Below, piece after piece: positions 2,314 to 40,846 of a stretch of 64,000 nt of DNA. The notes beneath the pieces are model-generated. The model saw nothing but the letters and a program-made list of their open reading frames with translations, was not told the origin of the DNA and ran no database searches. Numbering within the stretch: position 1 is the stretch's first letter; each line of letters starts with the position of its first letter. The stretch is taken from assembly GCA_030696085.1 (NCBI GenBank), contig JAUYNL010000081.1, positions 1-64,000 on the forward strand. Direction: 5' to 3'. Made by a program: the position numbers and the translations under genes. The DNA is from Luteolibacter sp. Its GTDB lineage: Bacteria; Verrucomicrobiota; Verrucomicrobiia; Verrucomicrobiales; Akkermansiaceae.

Positions 2314-3294
2314 TTACTCGGCGGCGGCAGGGGTCTCCGGGAGTTTTTTCTCGGGATTGAGAAGTTTGGCGAACTCAGTCCCCCAATCGCGGACGGACTT
2401 GTGGTTGATGTGTTTTTCCAAGTGGCTGAGCATGCGCAGCGCGGCTCCCCGCTGATCACCGTTCTTGAACAAATCCATTTCCATCTGCCATTGCAAGGCG
2501 GGCACCGCTTCGATTATGAATCGTTCGTATTCCGGCGAGCGCATCGCGCTGGCCATGCCGATGCGTTTGCTGGCGGGCTCGCCGCCGCCTCCCGCGCCCC
2601 CGGTCCAGAACTCGCGGATCGCCATTTCCTGCTGGATGCGCCGGATCCATGCGGAGCGCAGGGACTCCAGCCGGGAGGGCGCGCGCAGCGGAGGCAGTAG
2701 GATTTGCTCGTAGATTTGGCCGATCTGCGCGGGGGCCAGCGGCCATTTTTCCACTTTGACTTCGCCGATATCGTAGGCTCCCGCGAAAACCGAGCCCGTG
2801 ACGGGCTGATTGAGAAGCTGTTGATGATCCTTGAGTTTCTCCGCATCCTGTGAAATGGCATCGACGATCTCCCTGGCGCTGGAAGCGAGCACATCACGAT
2901 CAGCTTTTTCGGAGGTGGCGCGCAGCGTGAGGATGAGCCAGCGGAGTTGCAGGCGAAGGGCCATTCCCAAACCGGGAGCCGAGAGTTTTGGGGCCTCCTT
3001 GCGTTTCCACTCGCGGAAGTCGGAGTTCTTTTTCTGCTGGTCCTCGAAATTCACTTTCTCGATGCACTTGAGATGGAATTCCATGGCGGCCTCATCGCTG
3101 CCTGCCGCCGCGTTGTATGCCGCCATGGCCATGCGGTAACGCTTGTCCACGGTGGAATCGGCGTTCTCGCGCAAAGCCGTGAGTTTTTCCAGGAGCGCCT
3201 CACGATCAGCGGAAGAAAGCGTCTCGGCACGGACCGAGGAGGCGGCGCACAACGATCCCACAAACACGGCGAGCAGTTTCATGATGCGGGTCAT
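2314..3294 (-). CDS. Secreted hypothetical protein
   Basis: 326-aa ORF with signal peptide (MKLLAVFVGSLCAASSVRAE). Confidence 0.7.
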   Translation of the reverse strand: MTRIMKLLAVFVGSLCAASSVRAETLSSADREALLEKLTALRENADSTVDKRYRMAMAAYNAAAGSDEAAMEFHLKCIEKVNFEDQQKKNSDFREWKRKEAPKLSAPGLGMALRLQLRWLILTLRATSEKADRDVLASSAREIVDAISQDAEKLKDHQQLLNQPVTGSVFAGAYDIGEVKVEKWPLAPAQIGQIYEQILLPPLRAPSRLESLRSAWIRRIQQEMAIREFWTGGAGGGGEPASKRIGMASAMRSPEYERFIIEAVPALQWQMEMDLFKNGDQRGAALRMLSHLEKHINHKSVRDWGTEFAKLLNPEKKLPETPAAAE

Positions 3295-3426
3295 GACAAA
3301 TCACAAGAGCCGCGCCAAGAAGGAATAGGCGAAATCCGCAGGGAATCCCAAGACAGGCTGCGCATGCCGAGGATCCGCGCTTGGAATTCACCGATTTACG
3401 GGCATCGTTGGTGCCGTCACCCACCC

Positions 3427-4944
3427 ATGAATGCCTCATTCCGCCGATTGTTGGCGCTGGCCGCCGTGTTTTTCACCGCGTTTGCCGCCGTTTCCGCCAT
3501 GCGCACCTGCCGCGCCGGTGGCAGCCTCCGGGATTTGATCCCCGGCCTCTCGAAAAACGGCGAGCGCTTCCGACCGGAATCCTTCACGCTGCCGGACCGG
3601 CCGCCGCTCGATCTCGGCGATGTCGAACTGCTCTCACGCCTCAACGATGAATACGCCAACCTGACCAAAGCCGTGGTCCCATCCGTGGTGAGCATCGATA
3701 CCGCCGGCGTGCGCACTGAGAAGCTGCTCGACCTCTGGGGGCGCACCCGCGTGCGGCGCTACCCCACCCAGGGCCAGGGTTCCGGCGTGATCGTCACCCG
3801 CGAGGGGCATGTGGTGACCAACCATCACGTCATCGCCGGCCAGCAACAAATCCAAGTGACGCTCCACGGCGGGAAAACCCACCCCGCGCGCTTGATCGGC
3901 GAGGACACCCTGCTCGACATCGCCGTGCTCAAGATCGACGGCGAGGGCCCCTTCACCCCTCTCAAGCTCGGGGATTCCGCCCAAACCCAGGTCGGCCAGA
4001 TGGTTTTCGCCGTCGGCAATCCCTTCGGCCTCGGGGAAACGGTCACCCAAGGCATCATCTCGGCCAAGGAACGTTCGCTTTCCGACAACCAGCGCGATCT
4101 TTTCCAGACCGATGCCGCCATCAATCCGGGAAATTCAGGTGGCCCGCTCGTCAATCTGCGGGGTGAAATCATCGGCATCAACGTCGCGATTTTCTCGCCG
4201 GACCGCGAAAATCCCGGCTTCCAGGGCGTCGGGTTCTCGATTCCTTCCAACGATGTGAAGGATGCCTTGTTCCAGATCCTCGAGCGTGGCCGGCCGATCC
4301 GAGGCTTCCTCGGCGTGCAAATGCGCGATCTCGATCCCGCCGTGCGCGGGGCCCTCAAGTATGACGGCGAGTTCGGCACGGCGGTTCTCGGAGTCTCGCC
4401 CGGCTCACCCGCACAAGCCGCAGGCTTGCAGGCATGGGATGTCGTTCTCAGTTACAACGGCGAAACGATCCGCACGGCCTCCCAGTTGTTCACACTCGTC
4501 CAAGGCACCCGCATTGGCGACGAGGCCACGCTTGAAATCTGGCGCAAGGGTCAGTCGCTGACACTCAAGACGGTGATCACCGAAAGCGGTGCCGAAGGAG
4601 CCACCACCCCGCCTCCCGGAAATTCCGGAGAGCAGGGACGCACCCGCGACCCCGAGGAAATCCTGCAAGCGCTGGGCATCGAAGTCCGTGATCTCTCGGT
4701 GCCGGAGCGCATGCGCGGTTACCGCGGCGTGGTGATCACCGGCCTTGCCGCCACCGGCCTCGCCGCCAACCTGCTCCAAGCCGGCGATCTGATCGTGGCG
4801 GTGAACAACTCGCGCATCAACGGGGCCAGTGAGTTTTTCCTGCATCTGGCCGCCTCCGCCGCCGTCCAGGACACCGCCCTCCTCATCCTGCGCGAGGGCA
4901 AAACCCTGCGCGTCATCGTGCCCGCTCTGCCACGCCGGGAATAA
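3427..4944 (+). CDS. DegP/HtrA-like serine protease with two PDZ domains
   Basis: VTNHHVIAG, DIAVLKI and NPGNSGGPL triad motifs; C-terminal PDZ-like repeats; start placed at the signal peptide MNASFRRLLALAAVFF rather than the longer ORF start. Confidence 0.92.
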   Translation: MNASFRRLLALAAVFFTAFAAVSAMRTCRAGGSLRDLIPGLSKNGERFRPESFTLPDRPPLDLGDVELLSRLNDEYANLTKAVVPSVVSIDTAGVRTEKLLDLWGRTRVRRYPTQGQGSGVIVTREGHVVTNHHVIAGQQQIQVTLHGGKTHPARLIGEDTLLDIAVLKIDGEGPFTPLKLGDSAQTQVGQMVFAVGNPFGLGETVTQGIISAKERSLSDNQRDLFQTDAAINPGNSGGPLVNLRGEIIGINVAIFSPDRENPGFQGVGFSIPSNDVKDALFQILERGRPIRGFLGVQMRDLDPAVRGALKYDGEFGTAVLGVSPGSPAQAAGLQAWDVVLSYNGETIRTASQLFTLVQGTRIGDEATLEIWRKGQSLTLKTVITESGAEGATTPPPGNSGEQGRTRDPEEILQALGIEVRDLSVPERMRGYRGVVITGLAATGLAANLLQAGDLIVAVNNSRINGASEFFLHLAASAAVQDTALLILREGKTLRVIVPALPRRE

Positions 4945-32720: not shown

Positions 32721-35687
32721 ATGACCGCCGCCGAGATCCGCCAGAGCTTCCTCGATTTCTTCCGCGAAAAACAGCACACCATCGTGCCCTCCGCCTCGCT
32801 GCTCCCGCAGTCGCCCGGTTTGCTGTTCACCAACGCCGGCATGAACCAGTTCGTGCCCTACTTCCTAGGCGTGGAAAAAGCCCCCTACGATCCGCCGCGC
32901 GCCGCCGATACCCAGAAGTGCATCCGCGCCGGTGGCAAACACAACGACCTCGAGGACGTCGGCTACGACACCTATCACCACACGATGTTCGAGATGCTGG
33001 GGAACTGGTCCTTCGGCAACTACTTCAAAAAGGAAGCCATCGCCTGGGCATGGGAACTCGTCGTCGAGCGCTGGGGCCTGCCCGCCAACCGCCTCTACGC
33101 ATCTGTCTATGCCCCGAAACCCGGCGACCCCGGCGAGTTCGATCAGGAAGCCTGGGATCTCTGGGCCGCACTGTTCCGGAGCAAGGGAGTCGATCCCGAG
33201 ATCCACATCGTCCACGGCAACGTGAAAGACAACTTCTGGATGATGGGCGAAACCGGCCCCTGCGGCCCGTGTTCGGAGCTGCACGTCGATCTAACACCCA
33301 ACGGCGATTCCCAAGGCAAGCTCGTCAACAACGACTCCGACCTCTGCATCGAGATCTGGAACCTCGTCTTCATCCAATACAACGCCGAGGCCGACGGTTC
33401 CTTCCGCGAACTGCCCGCCAAACACGTCGATACCGGCATGGGTTTCGAGCGCGCCTGCTCCATCATCCAGAACACCAAGAGTTTTACCGACTTCTCGAAA
33501 AAACCCTCCAACTACGCCACCGACGTCTTCTCTCCCATCTTCCGCAAGCTGGAGGAACTCAGCGGAAAAACCTACGTGAATATCTATCCGGAACTCGGAG
33601 CCGACCGCTCGGCCTTCACCGAGGAAATGAAAACCGCCATCGCCTTCCGCGTCATCGCGGATCACCTGCGCACGCTAAGTTTCTCCATCGCCGACGGCAT
33701 CATGCCCGGCAACAACGGGAGAAACTACGTGCTGCGCCGGATCTTGCGGCGTGCTGTTAGATATGGAAGGCAACTTGGCTTTTCCGGAGATAAACCGTTC
33801 TTCGGCGCACTGGTGGAAACGCTCGTTAGCGAAATGGGCGGAGTTTTCCCTGAGTTGAAGAACCGTCAGGATGTCGTCCGGCAGACGCTTGAGCAGGAAG
33901 AAGCTAGCTTTAACGAGACACTTGATCGCGGATTGAAACGCTTCGAAGATCGGGGATTAAACGCAATTCTTAAGCCAGAGGGAAAGAAATGCTATCGCCA
34001 TCGTGATCCCGCCAATCCCGAAAAGAATTGGGGCATTTATGAACTCGATGGGACTTTCATTGAGGAGAGTTCAGCCAACGCTATTTGGGAGAACAATTCT
34101 TCTGTAGGTGCGGTATTGAGCGCTGAAGATGCATTCGAACTAGAAGACACATTCGGTTTTCCAATCGACCTCACTGAGTTGCTTTGCGCTGAGCGCGGAC
34201 TCGGCTTGGACAAAGACGGATACGAAGAGAGTAAAAAAGCTCAACAAGAACGCTCCCGCGCCGCCCAGAAATCCAACATTGTTCGCGCCCTCGACATCTC
34301 CACCGACGCCGTCACCGAGTTCCTCGGCTTCGACTCCGACGAAACCGAAGCCACCATCCTCGAAATCCACCCGCAGGAAGACGCGCTCTTCGTCATCACC
34401 GACAAGACAGTCTTCTACGCCGAAATGGGCGGCCAGGCCGGCGACACCGGCATTCTTCAAGTGGCTGGGACTTCCAGTCCCGGCCTTTCCGTTACCGGCA
34501 CCCAACAGATCGGCAAGGCCCGCGCGCATATCATCGATTCATCCGCTTCCGTTAAAGTCGGCGACAAGGTCATCCTCACACTCGACCCCACCCGCCGTCG
34601 TCCCATCGAGGCCCACCACACCGCCACGCACCTGCTCCACTGGGCGCTTCACGAAGCCGTTTCCAAGGACGCTTCCCAGCAAGGTTCCTCCGTTGATGAA
34701 AACCGCCTGCGTTTCGACTTCAACAGCGCCGCCGTCTCCCCCGAACAAATCGCCGAGATGGAGGCAATGGTCAACGGAGCCATCAAACAAGGCCTCTCCG
34801 TTTCATGGACCGAAGTGAAACACGCCGACATCAAGGGCCGCCCGGACATCATGCAGTTCTTCGGCGACAAATACGGCGAGTTCGTCCGCGTCGTGCAAAT
34901 CGGCGGCGAGCCTAACAAGCTCAACGGCCCGTCCATGGAACTCTGCGGCGGCACCCACGTCCGCAACACCAGCGAGATCGGCCTATTCAAAATCAAATCC
35001 GAAGGAGCCATCGCCTCCGGCGTCCGCCGCATCGAAGCCGTCTGCGGCGATGCCGCATGGGCCCACCTCAACGAATTCGTCGAGAAGTGGGACCACGAAC
35101 TCAAAGCCGCCCGCGCCAAACTCCACGCCGCCAACGAAAAACTGGCCGCCCTCGGCGAGGAAGCCGTCACCGTGAACGACTTTCCGCACATCATGGGAGC
35201 CATGCTGCTGGAACGCGCGGATATTTCCCAAATCAACGCCACCTTCGCCCACGGCCAGCGCACGCTGGAGGAAACCCAGCAAGCCGCCATCGAAGCCGAG
35301 AAACGCATCAGGAAAATCCAATCCTCCCAAGCCGCCGCTCTTGCCGACGAAGCTCTATCAGAACTCATCGCGGCCGGAAAACCGATCATCGTCTCCTTCG
35401 AGTCCGACGCCTCGCTGCTCCAAGAGCTCCAAAACGGCCTGAAAAAGAAAGCCTTCCCCGGCCCCGCCCTGCTCATCGTCGATGACGGCGAAAAACTCCA
35501 CCTCGCCACCCACTGCGGCCCGGACGCCCTCGCCGCCGGTCTCAAAGCCGGCGACCTCCTCCGCGACCTCGCCGCCCTCGCCGGCGGCAAAGGCGGCGGC
35601 AAACCGGACCAAGCGAGGGGAGCAGCACCTCAGCGCGAGAAACTTGCCGAGCTGAAAACCACTGCGGAAGGGATGCTCACGATTTGA
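32721..35687 (+). CDS. alaS: Alanyl-tRNA synthetase (mosaic; C-terminal tail adjoins island)
   Basis: IRQSFLDFFREKQHTIVPSASLLP...LLFTNAGMNQFVPYFLG; HHTATHLLHWAL; CGGTHVRNTSEIG. Confidence 0.97.
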   Translation: MTAAEIRQSFLDFFREKQHTIVPSASLLPQSPGLLFTNAGMNQFVPYFLGVEKAPYDPPRAADTQKCIRAGGKHNDLEDVGYDTYHHTMFEMLGNWSFGNYFKKEAIAWAWELVVERWGLPANRLYASVYAPKPGDPGEFDQEAWDLWAALFRSKGVDPEIHIVHGNVKDNFWMMGETGPCGPCSELHVDLTPNGDSQGKLVNNDSDLCIEIWNLVFIQYNAEADGSFRELPAKHVDTGMGFERACSIIQNTKSFTDFSKKPSNYATDVFSPIFRKLEELSGKTYVNIYPELGADRSAFTEEMKTAIAFRVIADHLRTLSFSIADGIMPGNNGRNYVLRRILRRAVRYGRQLGFSGDKPFFGALVETLVSEMGGVFPELKNRQDVVRQTLEQEEASFNETLDRGLKRFEDRGLNAILKPEGKKCYRHRDPANPEKNWGIYELDGTFIEESSANAIWENNSSVGAVLSAEDAFELEDTFGFPIDLTELLCAERGLGLDKDGYEESKKAQQERSRAAQKSNIVRALDISTDAVTEFLGFDSDETEATILEIHPQEDALFVITDKTVFYAEMGGQAGDTGILQVAGTSSPGLSVTGTQQIGKARAHIIDSSASVKVGDKVILTLDPTRRRPIEAHHTATHLLHWALHEAVSKDASQQGSSVDENRLRFDFNSAAVSPEQIAEMEAMVNGAIKQGLSVSWTEVKHADIKGRPDIMQFFGDKYGEFVRVVQIGGEPNKLNGPSMELCGGTHVRNTSEIGLFKIKSEGAIASGVRRIEAVCGDAAWAHLNEFVEKWDHELKAARAKLHAANEKLAALGEEAVTVNDFPHIMGAMLLERADISQINATFAHGQRTLEETQQAAIEAEKRIRKIQSSQAAALADEALSELIAAGKPIIVSFESDASLLQELQNGLKKKAFPGPALLIVDDGEKLHLATHCGPDALAAGLKAGDLLRDLAALAGGKGGGKPDQARGAAPQREKLAELKTTAEGMLTI
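35397..35614 (+). repeat. Direct repeat copy A (alaS 3' end)
   Basis: Aligned without gaps at +4060 to 39457-39674, including a 67-nt identical run 35458-35524 = 39518-39584. Confidence 0.95.
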
Positions 35688-35796
35688 TGGTTTGCGGACT
35701 TATCCGAATGACAGCTCCCGCATTTTGATTCACAACTTTGAAGTCTTGAATGGACAAGCGAGGCGGTTTCCGTCTTGATCGCCATCAACTGATCGC

Positions 35797-38643
35797 ATGA
35801 ACACCAAAAGTAAGTGGCTTTTCGAATTTGACCGCCGTCGTTCATCCGCGGTCAGGGAGGGAGTTGTGTCGGTGGAGGGATACAACCGGAATGGGAAGCC
35901 TCCGGAAGAGGTGGCCATGATGGAGAAAGCCGCTTTTTACAAAGCTCAGGCGGTTTTTTTCGAGGCTCCACACGACGGCAAGCCACCCATCGCCCAAGCC
36001 TTCATTTATCGTTCTGAAGGCCCGACCCAGGATTCGGATTTCGCCCACCTACATCAACGGCTGTGGAGTTGGGGCGGTGTTCCTCTCGTTTACCGGGTCA
36101 CTTCGGGGATGGTGCAGCTCTTCCGCTGCGCGCATCGTCCGGACTTCGAAAAGGATGGTCAGATCATCTGCAAACCTTTCAAGACCCTCAAGCTCGCGGC
36201 AACGGTCGCCAATGATCCATGGTGGGATGCCGACCGCTTGCGCAACGGCACGCTTTGGGACGATCCGCAGGTTTGCAAAAAACTGCTTTCCAGCAATCTG
36301 GCAGCCCAGAAAACACTCATCAACGCCGTCAAGGAGCTGTATGACCATCTGAATAAGGAAGGCATTCTTCCAAAAGTGCTCCGTCGGAAGCTGCTGATCT
36401 TGAGCGTCCTCATCGCCTATCTGGAAGAACGGGATGTTTTTGAAGAGGGCTACTTCGACCGGTTCAAAAAAGGTGCGGACAAGTTCTTCCAGGTTCTGGC
36501 CGACGGTCCCGCGCTGGTCGCATTGCTGGAACATTTGGAAGATCGCTTCAACGGTCATGTTTTCGTTCTGAGCGATGACGAGCGCGATACGTTGTTCACA
36601 AGCAAAAAGCTCCCACGCTTCGCCCAACTGGTCGAGGCGCGTCAGGAATCCGGCGGTCAGCTCACGCTCTGGAAGCGTTATTCGTTCGCCGACCTGCCGG
36701 TGGAATTGATCAGCCACATCTATCAACTCTTTGTGCACGACTCGTCGGTCGCGGTTTATACGCCGCAATTCCTTGTGCGTCTGATGCTGGGGGAGGTCTT
36801 GAGTTGGGAACGGCTGGATCGCTTGGAGCGAAACGATGAGGTCATCCTGGATGGAGCCTGCGGATCCGGTATTTTTCTGGTGGAAGCCTACAAACGTCTA
36901 ATTCTCCATTGGCGCTATCACAACGACTGGAAACACCCTGAACCAGCGACACTCAAAAAGCTCCTCACTTCTCGAATCCGTGGCGTGGACTTGGAAAAAG
37001 GTGCTGTAGAACTCGCTTCATTTAGTCTTTGCCTTGCTTTATGCGATGCGCTGCAACCTATGAAAATCAGGGCCAGTGTGAAGCTCTTCCCTGCATTGAA
37101 AGAGAAGTTTATTCATACGGGATGTTTCTTTGAAACCCGGGAGCAGGGAAAGGTGAAGGATAAGGTCGGCGTCATTGTCGGCAATCCTCCTTTCGCCTCG
37201 AAACTCAGCACCGACGGAGCCAAGCGGGCTTATGACCGCTACCAGAAGGACCATGGAGACTTGCCGGACAAACAAGTCGCATACCTTTTCCTTCACGAGT
37301 CCATGGAGATGCTGGCTCCCGGTGGCGTCCTTTCGATGCTCCAGCAATACAACTTTCTCTACAACCAGCAGTCCCTCGGCTTCCGGCAGAAATTCATTGA
37401 GCGCTGGGATGTACGGGAAATCCTCGATTTCATCTCCGTGCGCGGTCTTTTCCAGAAGGGCTCTGCGGATACCAAGGTGATCGCTGTGGTGGCCGAAGCT
37501 CAGCCCGCGCCGCCCAATCGTCAGATCCTCCACGCCACGTTCCGCCGGAGTGGCCGCGCGGATGCGGAACAAGGCTTCGACATCGACTACTACGACATGC
37601 ACTGGCTGCCGCGTGAACTGGCAACCACCAACGACGGAGTGTGGCGGAGCGACTTGCTTGGCGGGGGCCGTGTTCTCGGATTGGCGGATAGAACTGGCAA
37701 ACTTCGTTCACTCAAAGAACTGATCCAGCAATCAAAATGGGAAATTGGCGAGGGCTGGATTGTGGGAAATACAGATGACCCGCGGCCCGCTGAGCATGTC
37801 ATTGGGAAGAATTATGTTCGTGCCGAGGACCTGAATGATGCTGAGGTGGTTAAATCGAAACTCCGGATTGTTAGTGCCAAGACGCTACAGCGGCCACGCC
37901 GGGCCGAAATCTATACCCCACCTCTGCTTCTGATTCACAAACATGAAGATCTGGGCTTTGGAAAATGGATGGAATCCTATCTAACCTTTCCCCACACGAT
38001 ATTCGGAATTTCCGCAGCAAGGAGCAACGCAGATGGCTTAACGAAGGCGGCAGAGTGGCTTTCCAGTCAAAAGCGGCAACTTCAAGCATTGCTTGCATTG
38101 CGGGGAACCTCGTCATTGACCTCAAAAGCCACTGCCGTTTTGTCTGACGACATTCTCGAGTTGCCATTTCCTGAAGAATGGGATTTGCGTTTGTCGCGTC
38201 ACGAAGAAATCCTCGTAGATGACATTGTGGACTACTACCGTGATCTAGTCCGCCTAGGTGAAGACTCAACCGCGATGAAGGAATCGGGAGAAGGCGGACT
38301 CTCTGACTTCAACGAGATCTTCACCGCGCGTATCAACGGCGTTTACAAAAAGAACAAGCTGCAAGCTCTGCCTGCACAGGTTTGGCCCGGCGTGATTTGT
38401 CAGCCATATATCTTCGGCAAAGGAAAAGTGGACTGGAACGGCGCGGACGAGTTGAAGGGCAAGGTTGATGCGTTGCTGCGGGAAAAGCGCGGCGGCGGAC
38501 TCAACATCACCCGCATCGCACGACTTTACGATGGAGCCTGCATTTATCTGCTCAAGCCCGACCGGTTACGATACTGGCTCCGCTCCGTTGCTCTGCGTGA
38601 TGCAGACGAAACCCTGGCGGATTTGGCCCAACAGGGATTTTAA
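35797..38643 (+). CDS. N6-adenine DNA methyltransferase, Eco57I/type IIG-like
   Basis: Motif I-like EVILDGACGSGIFLVEAYKRL; motif IV GVIVGNPPFASKL; C-terminal target-recognition-like region; 948 aa. Confidence 0.9.
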   Translation: MNTKSKWLFEFDRRRSSAVREGVVSVEGYNRNGKPPEEVAMMEKAAFYKAQAVFFEAPHDGKPPIAQAFIYRSEGPTQDSDFAHLHQRLWSWGGVPLVYRVTSGMVQLFRCAHRPDFEKDGQIICKPFKTLKLAATVANDPWWDADRLRNGTLWDDPQVCKKLLSSNLAAQKTLINAVKELYDHLNKEGILPKVLRRKLLILSVLIAYLEERDVFEEGYFDRFKKGADKFFQVLADGPALVALLEHLEDRFNGHVFVLSDDERDTLFTSKKLPRFAQLVEARQESGGQLTLWKRYSFADLPVELISHIYQLFVHDSSVAVYTPQFLVRLMLGEVLSWERLDRLERNDEVILDGACGSGIFLVEAYKRLILHWRYHNDWKHPEPATLKKLLTSRIRGVDLEKGAVELASFSLCLALCDALQPMKIRASVKLFPALKEKFIHTGCFFETREQGKVKDKVGVIVGNPPFASKLSTDGAKRAYDRYQKDHGDLPDKQVAYLFLHESMEMLAPGGVLSMLQQYNFLYNQQSLGFRQKFIERWDVREILDFISVRGLFQKGSADTKVIAVVAEAQPAPPNRQILHATFRRSGRADAEQGFDIDYYDMHWLPRELATTNDGVWRSDLLGGGRVLGLADRTGKLRSLKELIQQSKWEIGEGWIVGNTDDPRPAEHVIGKNYVRAEDLNDAEVVKSKLRIVSAKTLQRPRRAEIYTPPLLLIHKHEDLGFGKWMESYLTFPHTIFGISAARSNADGLTKAAEWLSSQKRQLQALLALRGTSSLTSKATAVLSDDILELPFPEEWDLRLSRHEEILVDDIVDYYRDLVRLGEDSTAMKESGEGGLSDFNEIFTARINGVYKKNKLQALPAQVWPGVICQPYIFGKGKVDWNGADELKGKVDALLREKRGGGLNITRIARLYDGACIYLLKPDRLRYWLRSVALRDADETLADLAQQGF

Positions 38644-38655
38644 ATCTTCTCTATC

Positions 38656-39372
38656 ATGTTGGCAGAAAACTCCCATCACGTTCAATCAGGTCACCTCGAC
38701 CGGGAAATTCATCTGCCCTCCACCGCGAAGCATGAACTGGTAGACTTCATTTCAGAGCAATTGCCACTATGGCGCGACCACCCGGATCGTCCGGACAAAC
38801 AAAGCGAGACCGCGTTGACCGAATACCTCTGTGACCATCTCAACAGCGCTGTCTATCACTCGGAAACTTGGAGCCACGTTCAGTTCCGCACGGAAACGGG
38901 CGACGAAACACATGCCGGCCGGAAGATTGATCTCACCGTCAAACCGAGAGCCGCCTCACTCATCATTGAAGGCCGCCGACATAGTCAATTTGATCCCCTT
39001 TTCCCCATCGAGTGCAAACGCCTTCCCACGCCGAAAGAAAAAGACCGCGATGAGCGCGAATACGTCATCACCGAGCCCGGCACAACAGGTGGCATGCAGC
39101 GATTCAAGTTTGGCCATCATGGCGCGGCTCATGATTTCGTGGCAATGATTGCCTTTGTCCAAGAATACGATTTCCAACATTGGCACGGCAAGTTGAATGG
39201 CTGGATATCGGACCTCACCCAAGTTCCGAACTCCTCTTGGAAATTGGATGAGGTGCTTCACGTTGTGGATGTAAGCAAGAAATCAAAAATCTGCTCATTG
39301 GCTTCGACGCTTCAAAGGCTGGGAAAATTGAATGACTGTGAAGTGCGGCATCTTTGGGTTCAGATGAACTGA
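38656..39372 (+). CDS. PD-(D/E)XK-like restriction endonuclease candidate
   Basis: SETALTEYLCDHLN ... GRKIDLTVKP ... LFPIECKRLP (E...D...ExK pattern); adjacent to the MTase. Confidence 0.65.
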   Translation: MLAENSHHVQSGHLDREIHLPSTAKHELVDFISEQLPLWRDHPDRPDKQSETALTEYLCDHLNSAVYHSETWSHVQFRTETGDETHAGRKIDLTVKPRAASLIIEGRRHSQFDPLFPIECKRLPTPKEKDRDEREYVITEPGTTGGMQRFKFGHHGAAHDFVAMIAFVQEYDFQHWHGKLNGWISDLTQVPNSSWKLDEVLHVVDVSKKSKICSLASTLQRLGKLNDCEVRHLWVQMN

Positions 39373-39759
39373 ATGAGAATCCAGTTGCTACATCGCTGGG
39401 CCACGGAAACGCAGAATTCACTTCGTCAGCGAATTAATTCGAAAATGAACTCACGCTTCGACTCCGACGCCTCGCTGCTCCAGGAACTCCAGAACGGCCT
39501 CAAGAAAAAACAATTCTCCGGCCCCGCCCTGCTCATCGTCGATGACGGCGAAAAACTCCACCTCGCCACCCACTGCGGCCCGGATGCCCTGGCAGCCGGA
39601 CTCAAAGCCGGCGACCTGCTCCGCGACCTCGCCGCCCTGGCCGGCGGCAAAGGCGGCGGCAAACCGGACCAAGCCCGCGGCGCCGCGACGGATCGCAGCA
39701 AGCTGGAGGAAATCAAGACAGTCGCCTCCGCGAAATTCCAGCCCGACTTTCGCTGTTAG
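39373..39759 (+). pseudogene. Duplicated alaS 3' fragment (C-Ala-like tail)
   Basis: FDSDASLLQELQNGLKKKQFSGPALLIVDDGEKLHLATHCGPDALAAGLKAGDLLRDLAALAGGKGGGKPDQARGAA duplicates the AlaRS C-terminus; an ATG directly follows the preceding stop, so it could still be translated. Confidence 0.85.
39457..39674 (+). repeat. Direct repeat copy B (alaS 3' end remnant)
   Basis: Matches 35397-35614, mostly synonymous differences. Confidence 0.95.
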
Positions 39760-39766
39760 ATGCGGC

Positions 39767-40846
39767 TCACCCGGCCAGGGAAATGATGCCCTCGGCCGTC
39801 TCCTGCTTGAGGCGGAGCTGGCCGCAGGCGGCATCGATATCACCGCCTTTTTCGAGGCGGAGGGTGGCGGAGACGCCGGCGTTTTTCAGGATGTCGCGGA
39901 AGGCGCGGCAGCGGGTGTAGGACGGGCGTTTCCATGCGAGCCCCTCGACGGTGTTGTAGGGGATGAGGTTCACCTTGGCGTGGATGCGGCGCGCGTGGCG
40001 GGCGAGGATGGCGGCTTGTTCGGGCGCATCGTTCACATTCTCTATCAGGATGTATTCGAGGGTGAGTTTTTGGTTTTTGCGCGAGTTCCAGAAATCCAGG
40101 GCGTCGAAGAGTTCGGCGACGGGCCACTTGCGGTTGATGGGCATGATCTGCTGGCGGACCTCGTCGGTGGCTCCGTGGAGCGAGATGGCGAGGCGGATCT
40201 GCTGCGGGTGCTCGGCGAGCTGGCGGATCTGCGGGACCAGGCCGGAGGTGGAGATGGTGAGGTGGCGCGCGCCGAGGCGCAGGGTTTTCCCGCCGGTGAT
40301 GAGTTCGATGGCGGCCAGGAGATTATCGAGATTGGCGAGCGGTTCGCCCATGCCCATGAAGACGAGGTTATCGACACGTTCGCCGGAAAGTTGTTCGGCG
40401 GCGAGCACCTGGCCGGCGATTTCCGCGGCGTCGAGATTGCGGGTGAATCCGGCGAGGCCGGAGGCGCAGAATTTGCAGCCATAGGCGCAGCCGACCTGTG
40501 AGGAAACGCAGAGCGTGCGACGGTCCGAGCTTTCGCCATAAAGCGCGGGATTGGCGGGGATGAGCACGCTTTCCACGTAGCGGCCGTCGAGCAGGCGGAA
40601 GAGGAACTTGCGGGTGGTGTCCGCCGAACCCTGGGTGTGGGTGTGTTCGAGCGCGGCGAGGTGGAAGGAAGCGGCGAGTTTTTCGCGCAGAGCGGCGGGC
40701 AGATTGCTCATCGCCTCATAGGAGGCTGCCTTTTTTTTCCAAACCCATTCGAGGATCTGCGTGGCGCGGAAGGACGGCTCTCCGGCGCTGGCCAGCCAGG
40801 CGGCGAGGGCATCCGGGCTGAGGCTTGTGAGCGCGGGTTTCGTCAT
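39767..40846 (-). CDS. rlmN: 23S rRNA (adenine(2503)-C(2))-methyltransferase RlmN
   Basis: LCVSSQVGCAYGCKFCASGLAGFTRNLDAAEIAGQVL; FMGMGEPLANLDNLL. Confidence 0.95.
   Translation of the reverse strand: MTKPALTSLSPDALAAWLASAGEPSFRATQILEWVWKKKAASYEAMSNLPAALREKLAASFHLAALEHTHTQGSADTTRKFLFRLLDGRYVESVLIPANPALYGESSDRRTLCVSSQVGCAYGCKFCASGLAGFTRNLDAAEIAGQVLAAEQLSGERVDNLVFMGMGEPLANLDNLLAAIELITGGKTLRLGARHLTISTSGLVPQIRQLAEHPQQIRLAISLHGATDEVRQQIMPINRKWPVAELFDALDFWNSRKNQKLTLEYILIENVNDAPEQAAILARHARRIHAKVNLIPYNTVEGLAWKRPSYTRCRAFRDILKNAGVSATLRLEKGGDIDAACGQLRLKQETAEGIISLAG

Follow-up and report, generated by a model that had tools for sequence, protein, structure and literature searches.

In the genome of the present window (W; the window is the whole 64,000-nt stretch of DNA that was analysed), a two-gene cassette lies behind the essential gene alaS, between two copies of that gene's 3´ end. 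The repeat and its gene content recur in other species, the copies that complete alaS (copies A) carry odd tails, and in W the differences between copy A and the downstream copy B are those of alleles. We think it rather probable that an addiction or defence cassette bringing its own alaS end entered by homology and displaced one 3´ end. Throughout, G-numbers denote genomes and L-numbers the loci compared.

The duplicated alaS end and the genes it brackets

A repeat search placed the dominant direct repeat of W at 35396-35659 and 39456-39719 (264 nt, 86% identity), and alignment agreed with the initial annotation, which had reported the alaS 3´ end twice at an offset of 4060, with a 67-nt identical run, around a methyltransferase (MTase) gene and a nuclease-like gene; the identical run lies at 35458-35524. 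Likeness between the copies is uneven: 202 of 219 positions are identical in the repeat body (35396-35614) and just 32 of 70 in the last 70 nt of alaS (35615-35684), an abrupt step from 8% to 54% divergence at the tail, while the 60 nt upstream of the repeat agree at 12 of 60 positions, which is near random. Copy A completes, in frame, a 988-aa AlaRS, so the element does rebuild the alaS end, as had been claimed. Copy B is a headless 128-aa ORF that keeps the frame, has alaS homology up to the codon '...AKF', has lost the stop codon, and adjoins rlmN. Between the copies lie the MTase gene and the gene for a 238-aa protein and nothing else; inspection of the ORFs there revealed no integrase or transposase, in keeping with the first reading, and the window contains no tRNA gene. 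The locus sits within a 165-kb contig.

Table 1. Features of the alaS locus in W.
Feature	Position	Strand	Basis
alaS, 988-aa AlaRS, completed by copy A	32721..35687	+	ORF; Pfam tRNA-synt_2c, tRNA_SAD, DHHA1
Copy A of the alaS 3´ end, left repeat	35396..35659	+	Repeat alignment
Divergent alaS tail (...AEGMLTI*), probably cassette-borne	35615..35687	+	32/70 vs copy B; GMLxI* common to G034 and G074
Cassette leader	35688..35796	+	Alignment: conserved in G034, G074 and L097
N6-adenine DNA methyltransferase, Type IIG-like	35797..38643	+	Pfam Eco57I, N6_Mtase, MmeI_Mtase; PADLOC REase_MTase_IIG
238-aa PD-(D/E)XK-like nuclease candidate	38656..39372	+	Conserved D92, E119, K121
Right junction	39373..39455	.	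~45 nt, ending GAATTAATTCGAAAATGAA, common to G034
Copy B, headless alaS 3´ end, frame kept, stop codon lost	39456..39729	+	Repeat and alignment
rlmN	39767..40846	-	

The MTase belongs to the Pfam Eco57I/N6_Mtase family (E 2e-14 and 5e-12), with MmeI_Mtase also above the cut-off, and PADLOC placed it nearest to Type IIG enzymes. Its NPPF catalytic motif is invariant in 19 homologues. Between W and G034, residues 627-800 are strongly divergent and the remainder is ~91% identical, a pattern that would fit the expected target-recognition region. Its structure model is weak (pLDDT 70), and no relatives of the MTase were found in viral contigs. A distant second relative (31% identity, 1054-aa frame) is encoded ~60 kb downstream on the W contig, outside the window (G000:C90:99608-102496). 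For the 238-aa protein, there was no Pfam match and no PDB match by sequence or by fold, the fold search being run with its model. Residues D92, E119 and K121 (ID...IECK) are invariant in 20 homologues, and the helix-strand order of the AlphaFold model (pLDDT 86) is compatible with PD-(D/E)XK, making this protein a PD-(D/E)XK-like nuclease candidate and a possible cognate endonuclease. It follows the MTase in all related loci compared. The pair is a predicted R-M system.

Recurrence of the cassette and of the alaS site

A close version of the cassette (76-100% identity) was present in 3 of the 73 genus genomes searched, W, G034 and G074, and in all three it is placed behind alaS. In G034, assembled separately, the cassette, the repeat and the right-hand junction are as in W: the ~45 nt of non-alaS sequence before copy B match and are joined at the identical alaS codon, and the body of copy A matches that of copy B at 97%. 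In G074 (L098), the MTase directly follows alaS, and copy B was not found in the 1.8 kb of sequence searched there. The nuclease gene of this genome (L098:3138-3854) has an in-frame stop near codon 189 beside an intact MTase, and the cassette may thus have been left with methylation only. The leader is conserved in G034, G074 and also L097, whose upstream gene is not alaS, and the right junction common to W and G034 is absent from L097 and L098. Core genes place W and G034 in different clades, and identity at fourfold sites is 0.61 for the MTase and 0.52-0.65 for core genes; this core-gene-like synonymous divergence indicates that the two did not exchange the MTase in recent times. An empty alaS-rlmN site was not found among 72 genus relatives, because rlmN sits away from alaS in those searched. 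Across this one genus (L031-L070, L161-L194), the surroundings of alaS, rlmN and the atp operon show little conservation of gene order.

The MTase-nuclease pair itself occurs in Verrucomicrobia, Planctomycetota, Armatimonadetes, Hydrogenedentota, Acidobacteria and Proteobacteria, and also on alphaproteobacterial plasmids, often with a small gene before the pair. Of 28 pair loci, 5 (W and G034 included) are flanked on each side, at no more than 600 nt, by a direct repeat, vs 4 of 1500 random intervals of equal spacing in the loci compared; on the strength of this control we excluded chance as the source of the repeat in W. The expectation that the pair would turn up beside duplicated gene ends elsewhere was borne out by the search of other loci. 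L105 repeats the end of a membrane-transporter-like gene, with a matching body and a tail that does not match; L100 has a second copy, at 94%, of the final 760 nt of a large gene, lying past the pair plus 2.7 kb; and a Paracoccus plasmid carries a toxin-antitoxin (TA) module together with the pair between the two copies of a 103-nt repeat. Most other pair loci have no flanking repeat. Other candidates were set aside: the 70% repeat at L102 resembles a gene start and may reflect paralogy, the repeat at L107 is just 28 nt, a length that also arose among the random controls, and a family member on S. meliloti pSymA, considered as an empty-site case, matches strain 1021 in one flank only and has no bracketing repeat.

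We also scanned alaS, together with control genes from these loci, for downstream copies that take in the gene's 3´ end. Such duplications were present at 5 of 62 alaS loci and for 0 of 301 control genes (Fisher p = 1e-4), the hotspot p-values being optimistic given that thresholds were chosen once the first cases were known and that two of the five duplications are R-M copies with a common junction. The cargo is R-M in W and G034, a MazE-PIN-HTH TA operon in G031, an AAA-DUF4143 ATPase in G079, with a PIN gene just past it, and an uncharacterized secreted-looking protein in G072. In G031 (L032, + strand after reversal), the TA cassette is bracketed by a 209-nt, 95% repeat (3171-3379 and 4514-4722) that takes in the end of alaS plus 117 nt of its non-coding flank. 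Duplication boundaries vary by case, some lying inside alaS and some extending past it; copy B starts at the identical codon in W and G034. The copy B of G072 (L161) starts within ~11 nt of that point, with different cargo. TA genes stand immediately behind alaS with no repeat in G005, G089, G060, G069 and G088, a biased set in that queries were drawn from such loci. Counted by Pfam alone, the 78 small proteins encoded within 1.5 kb behind alaS yielded 15 hits to TA families, as against a single hit for the 52 lying 4.5-6 kb away (p = 0.002; merging near-identical species gives 0.003; both values are optimistic, the thresholds being post hoc). The end of alaS is thus a hotspot not for R-M alone but also for other cargos, a TA operon and a DUF4143 ATPase among them, a point absent from the initial annotation. 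In the genomes compared from other genera of the family, a second match appeared only in G563, at contig edges.

Direct repeats behind alaS in G061, G024, G066 and G083 were dropped as REP-type or as lying beside genes like RAYT (REP-associated tyrosine transposase). As a separate observation, a RAYT is found in frame within the essential AlaRS, at ~aa 412, in many species of the genus (L046:85-3519, L041:129-3566, also L042 and L058), in open frames of ~1140-1260 aa with no stop. The insert matches NCBIfam NF047646 (86.7 bits, 143 of 146 model positions) and Pfam Y1_Tnp, and the W counterpart of the site is a spacer near 33950-34115. A search of the available literature found no paper combining a REP-associated tyrosine transposase with AlaRS.

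Origin of the two ends and route of entry

Comparison with relatives upheld the early remark that the ordinary tail belongs to copy B, copy A being the odd one: alaS ends in GMLxI* in all three carriers, and copies B end like the alaS of ordinary relatives instead. The copy A tail of W has no relative above 70% identity. GML tails occur in a few other species (G020, G065, G085 and G087), and alaS of this type is a plausible source of the cassette's tail. The cassette thus seems to have brought its own alaS tail, as had been proposed, in view of the shared GMLxI* ending and the allelic divergence in W. In the tree, copy B, unlike copy A, clusters with G024 (UFBoot 95); the upstream alaS of W is poorly placed (support 42), and we are therefore less sure which W copy is the resident one.

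The initial annotation had described the island as inserted with a long target duplication. On such an account, some unnamed process would have doubled ~264 nt of host alaS and the copies would have diverged later. Such insertions are reported for R-M systems (PMC3031569, PMC3874152), and both the 97% likeness of the G034 copies and the G031 repeat with its non-coding flank fit this account. A duplicate of W's own end, freed from selection, would be expected to show mostly protein-changing differences, but the body differences between copies A and B in W are 12.5 synonymous vs 4.5 non-synonymous. In neutral simulation, 0 of 4000 runs reached a value this low, and a cruder, milder model with A constrained and B free gave ~0.03. 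Since the differences are mostly synonymous, the W copies diverged as two functional alleles and not as one duplicated target, and they were most likely brought together by recombination. The jump from 8% to 54% divergence at the tail likewise counts against simple duplication, which is a poor fit to W and which we judge unlikely overall. In G072, with its different cargo, a direct pairwise count gave 16 synonymous vs 5 non-synonymous differences.

A single old, vertically inherited insertion would agree with the similar W-G034 divergence of MTase and core genes at synonymous sites and with their common right junction. A headless copy B free of selection should have decayed, however, and W_B and G034_B retain the frame and most of the protein sequence. 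They appear too well preserved for an unselected remnant as old as the MTase divergence, which repeated re-entry or gene conversion could explain. Multi-contig draft genomes could in turn suggest an assembly artefact, but the W locus lies inside its contig and the arrangement is repeated in a separately assembled genome; inheritance and artefact taken together strike us as very improbable. Integration by a site-specific integrase acting in trans from another element would suit the general habit of islands to use and restore gene 3´ ends, but no integrase lies between the copies and the boundaries of the alaS duplications differ among cases, so that we give this route hardly any credence. Homing, in which the nuclease would cut a recipient alaS near its 3´ end and repair would copy in the cassette with the donor's gene end, as for fungal mitochondrial mORFs, has in its favour that Glomus and Allomyces show the identical geometry with a divergent C-terminus brought in by the insert (PMC3630166), as well as the near-constant start of copy B in W, G034 and G072. 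The nuclease resembles an R-M partner and not a LAGLIDADG or GIY-YIG enzyme, and the alaS duplications of G072, G031 and G079 are without such a nuclease; we consider homing very improbable.

The reading we prefer, homology-driven displacement, takes the island to be a small addiction or defence cassette, with a Type IIG-like MTase and a PD-(D/E)XK-like nuclease and without a recombinase of its own. Incoming DNA would carry an alaS 3´ tail immediately before the MTase gene, and homologous recombination anchored in the conserved body of the alaS 3´ end would fuse this tail in frame to the resident gene, such that AlaRS stays whole and the other 3´ end is stranded downstream as copy B. Retention would be favoured by R-M addiction, because loss of an R-M system can kill the cell, and crossing-over between copies A and B could release the cassette in circular form together with a single alaS fragment, leaving an intact alaS. 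While we infer the recombination route, the resident copy in W, the role of addiction and excision, displacement of this kind would account for the functional hybrid, the odd working tail, the ordinary stranded tail and the missing recombinase. Counting against it are the lack of an empty site among the genus relatives and of an observed circle, the core-gene-like W-G034 divergence, the support of 42 for W alaS, the likeness of the G034 copies, which also fits duplication, and the many pair loci without a repeat. Campbell integration of a circle is possible: a fixed copy B start would be expected, as W and G034 show, along with host-type B tails, which G034 has and with which W is compatible. 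Had one-sided illegitimate joining occurred and the composite then spread, a right junction common to W and G034 and absent from L097 and L098 would be expected, as observed. Restriction is a possible driver of insertion.

How R-M and TA genes move without a transposase has been a puzzle since the first reports of long target duplications, and this locus suggests a testable answer, in which a conserved essential-gene end serves as docking arm, making insertion harmless and the module hard to lose. We tentatively extend this to recombinase-free addiction cassettes, R-M and TA, as a class, which might, though we hold it somewhat doubtful, spread across species using the 3´ end of an essential gene as homology arm; each transfer would swap the ending of a gene that still works and leave the old ending behind, reversibly through recombination between the copies. 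There is a warning here as well, in that the C-terminus of a housekeeping protein used in phylogeny, such as AlaRS, may be swapped by passing cargo.

Comparison with known systems

Fungal mitochondrial mORFs replace gene C-termini, as in Allomyces atp6 and Glomus atp6, cox2 and nad3 (PMC3630166); there too, an element brings a divergent gene end that is used and the native end is left downstream, but mORFs encode homing endonucleases and are mitochondrial, whereas the W cargo is an R-M pair in a bacterium. In Rhs C-terminal displacement and T6SS effector-immunity displacement (PMC5361080), recombination in a conserved 5´ part similarly adds a module and orphans the old 3´ part downstream. The gene displaced in those systems is a variable toxin or immunity gene, whereas at alaS it is an essential housekeeping gene that is kept whole. 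W appears to follow the same C-terminal displacement pattern, with alaS using a divergent, inserted end and a native-like end lying downstream. With Type IIG and Type II R-M systems of the Eco57I/MmeI kind, the cassette has in common the MTase family, a variable stretch at the expected target-recognition domain and an adjacent nuclease-like gene, but the nuclease candidate, 238 aa long and a protein of its own, has neither a Pfam nor a solved-fold match. Genomic islands often use gene 3´ ends and restore them, and integrase-driven islands resemble W in the restored gene end; W differs in having no integrase and a divergent 264-nt repeat in place of a short identical att core. A precedent with the same cargo is R-M insertion with long target duplication (Nobusato 2000 and Furuta 2010, as cited in PMC3031569 and PMC3874152), with which W shares a recombinase-free R-M unit between long direct repeats. 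Derivation of both repeats from one host target came out against in W, given the synonymous pattern and the tail jump: the repeats are different alleles, the upstream one with a foreign-looking tail, and the alaS spot differs further in being reused repeatedly, and by TA cassettes too.
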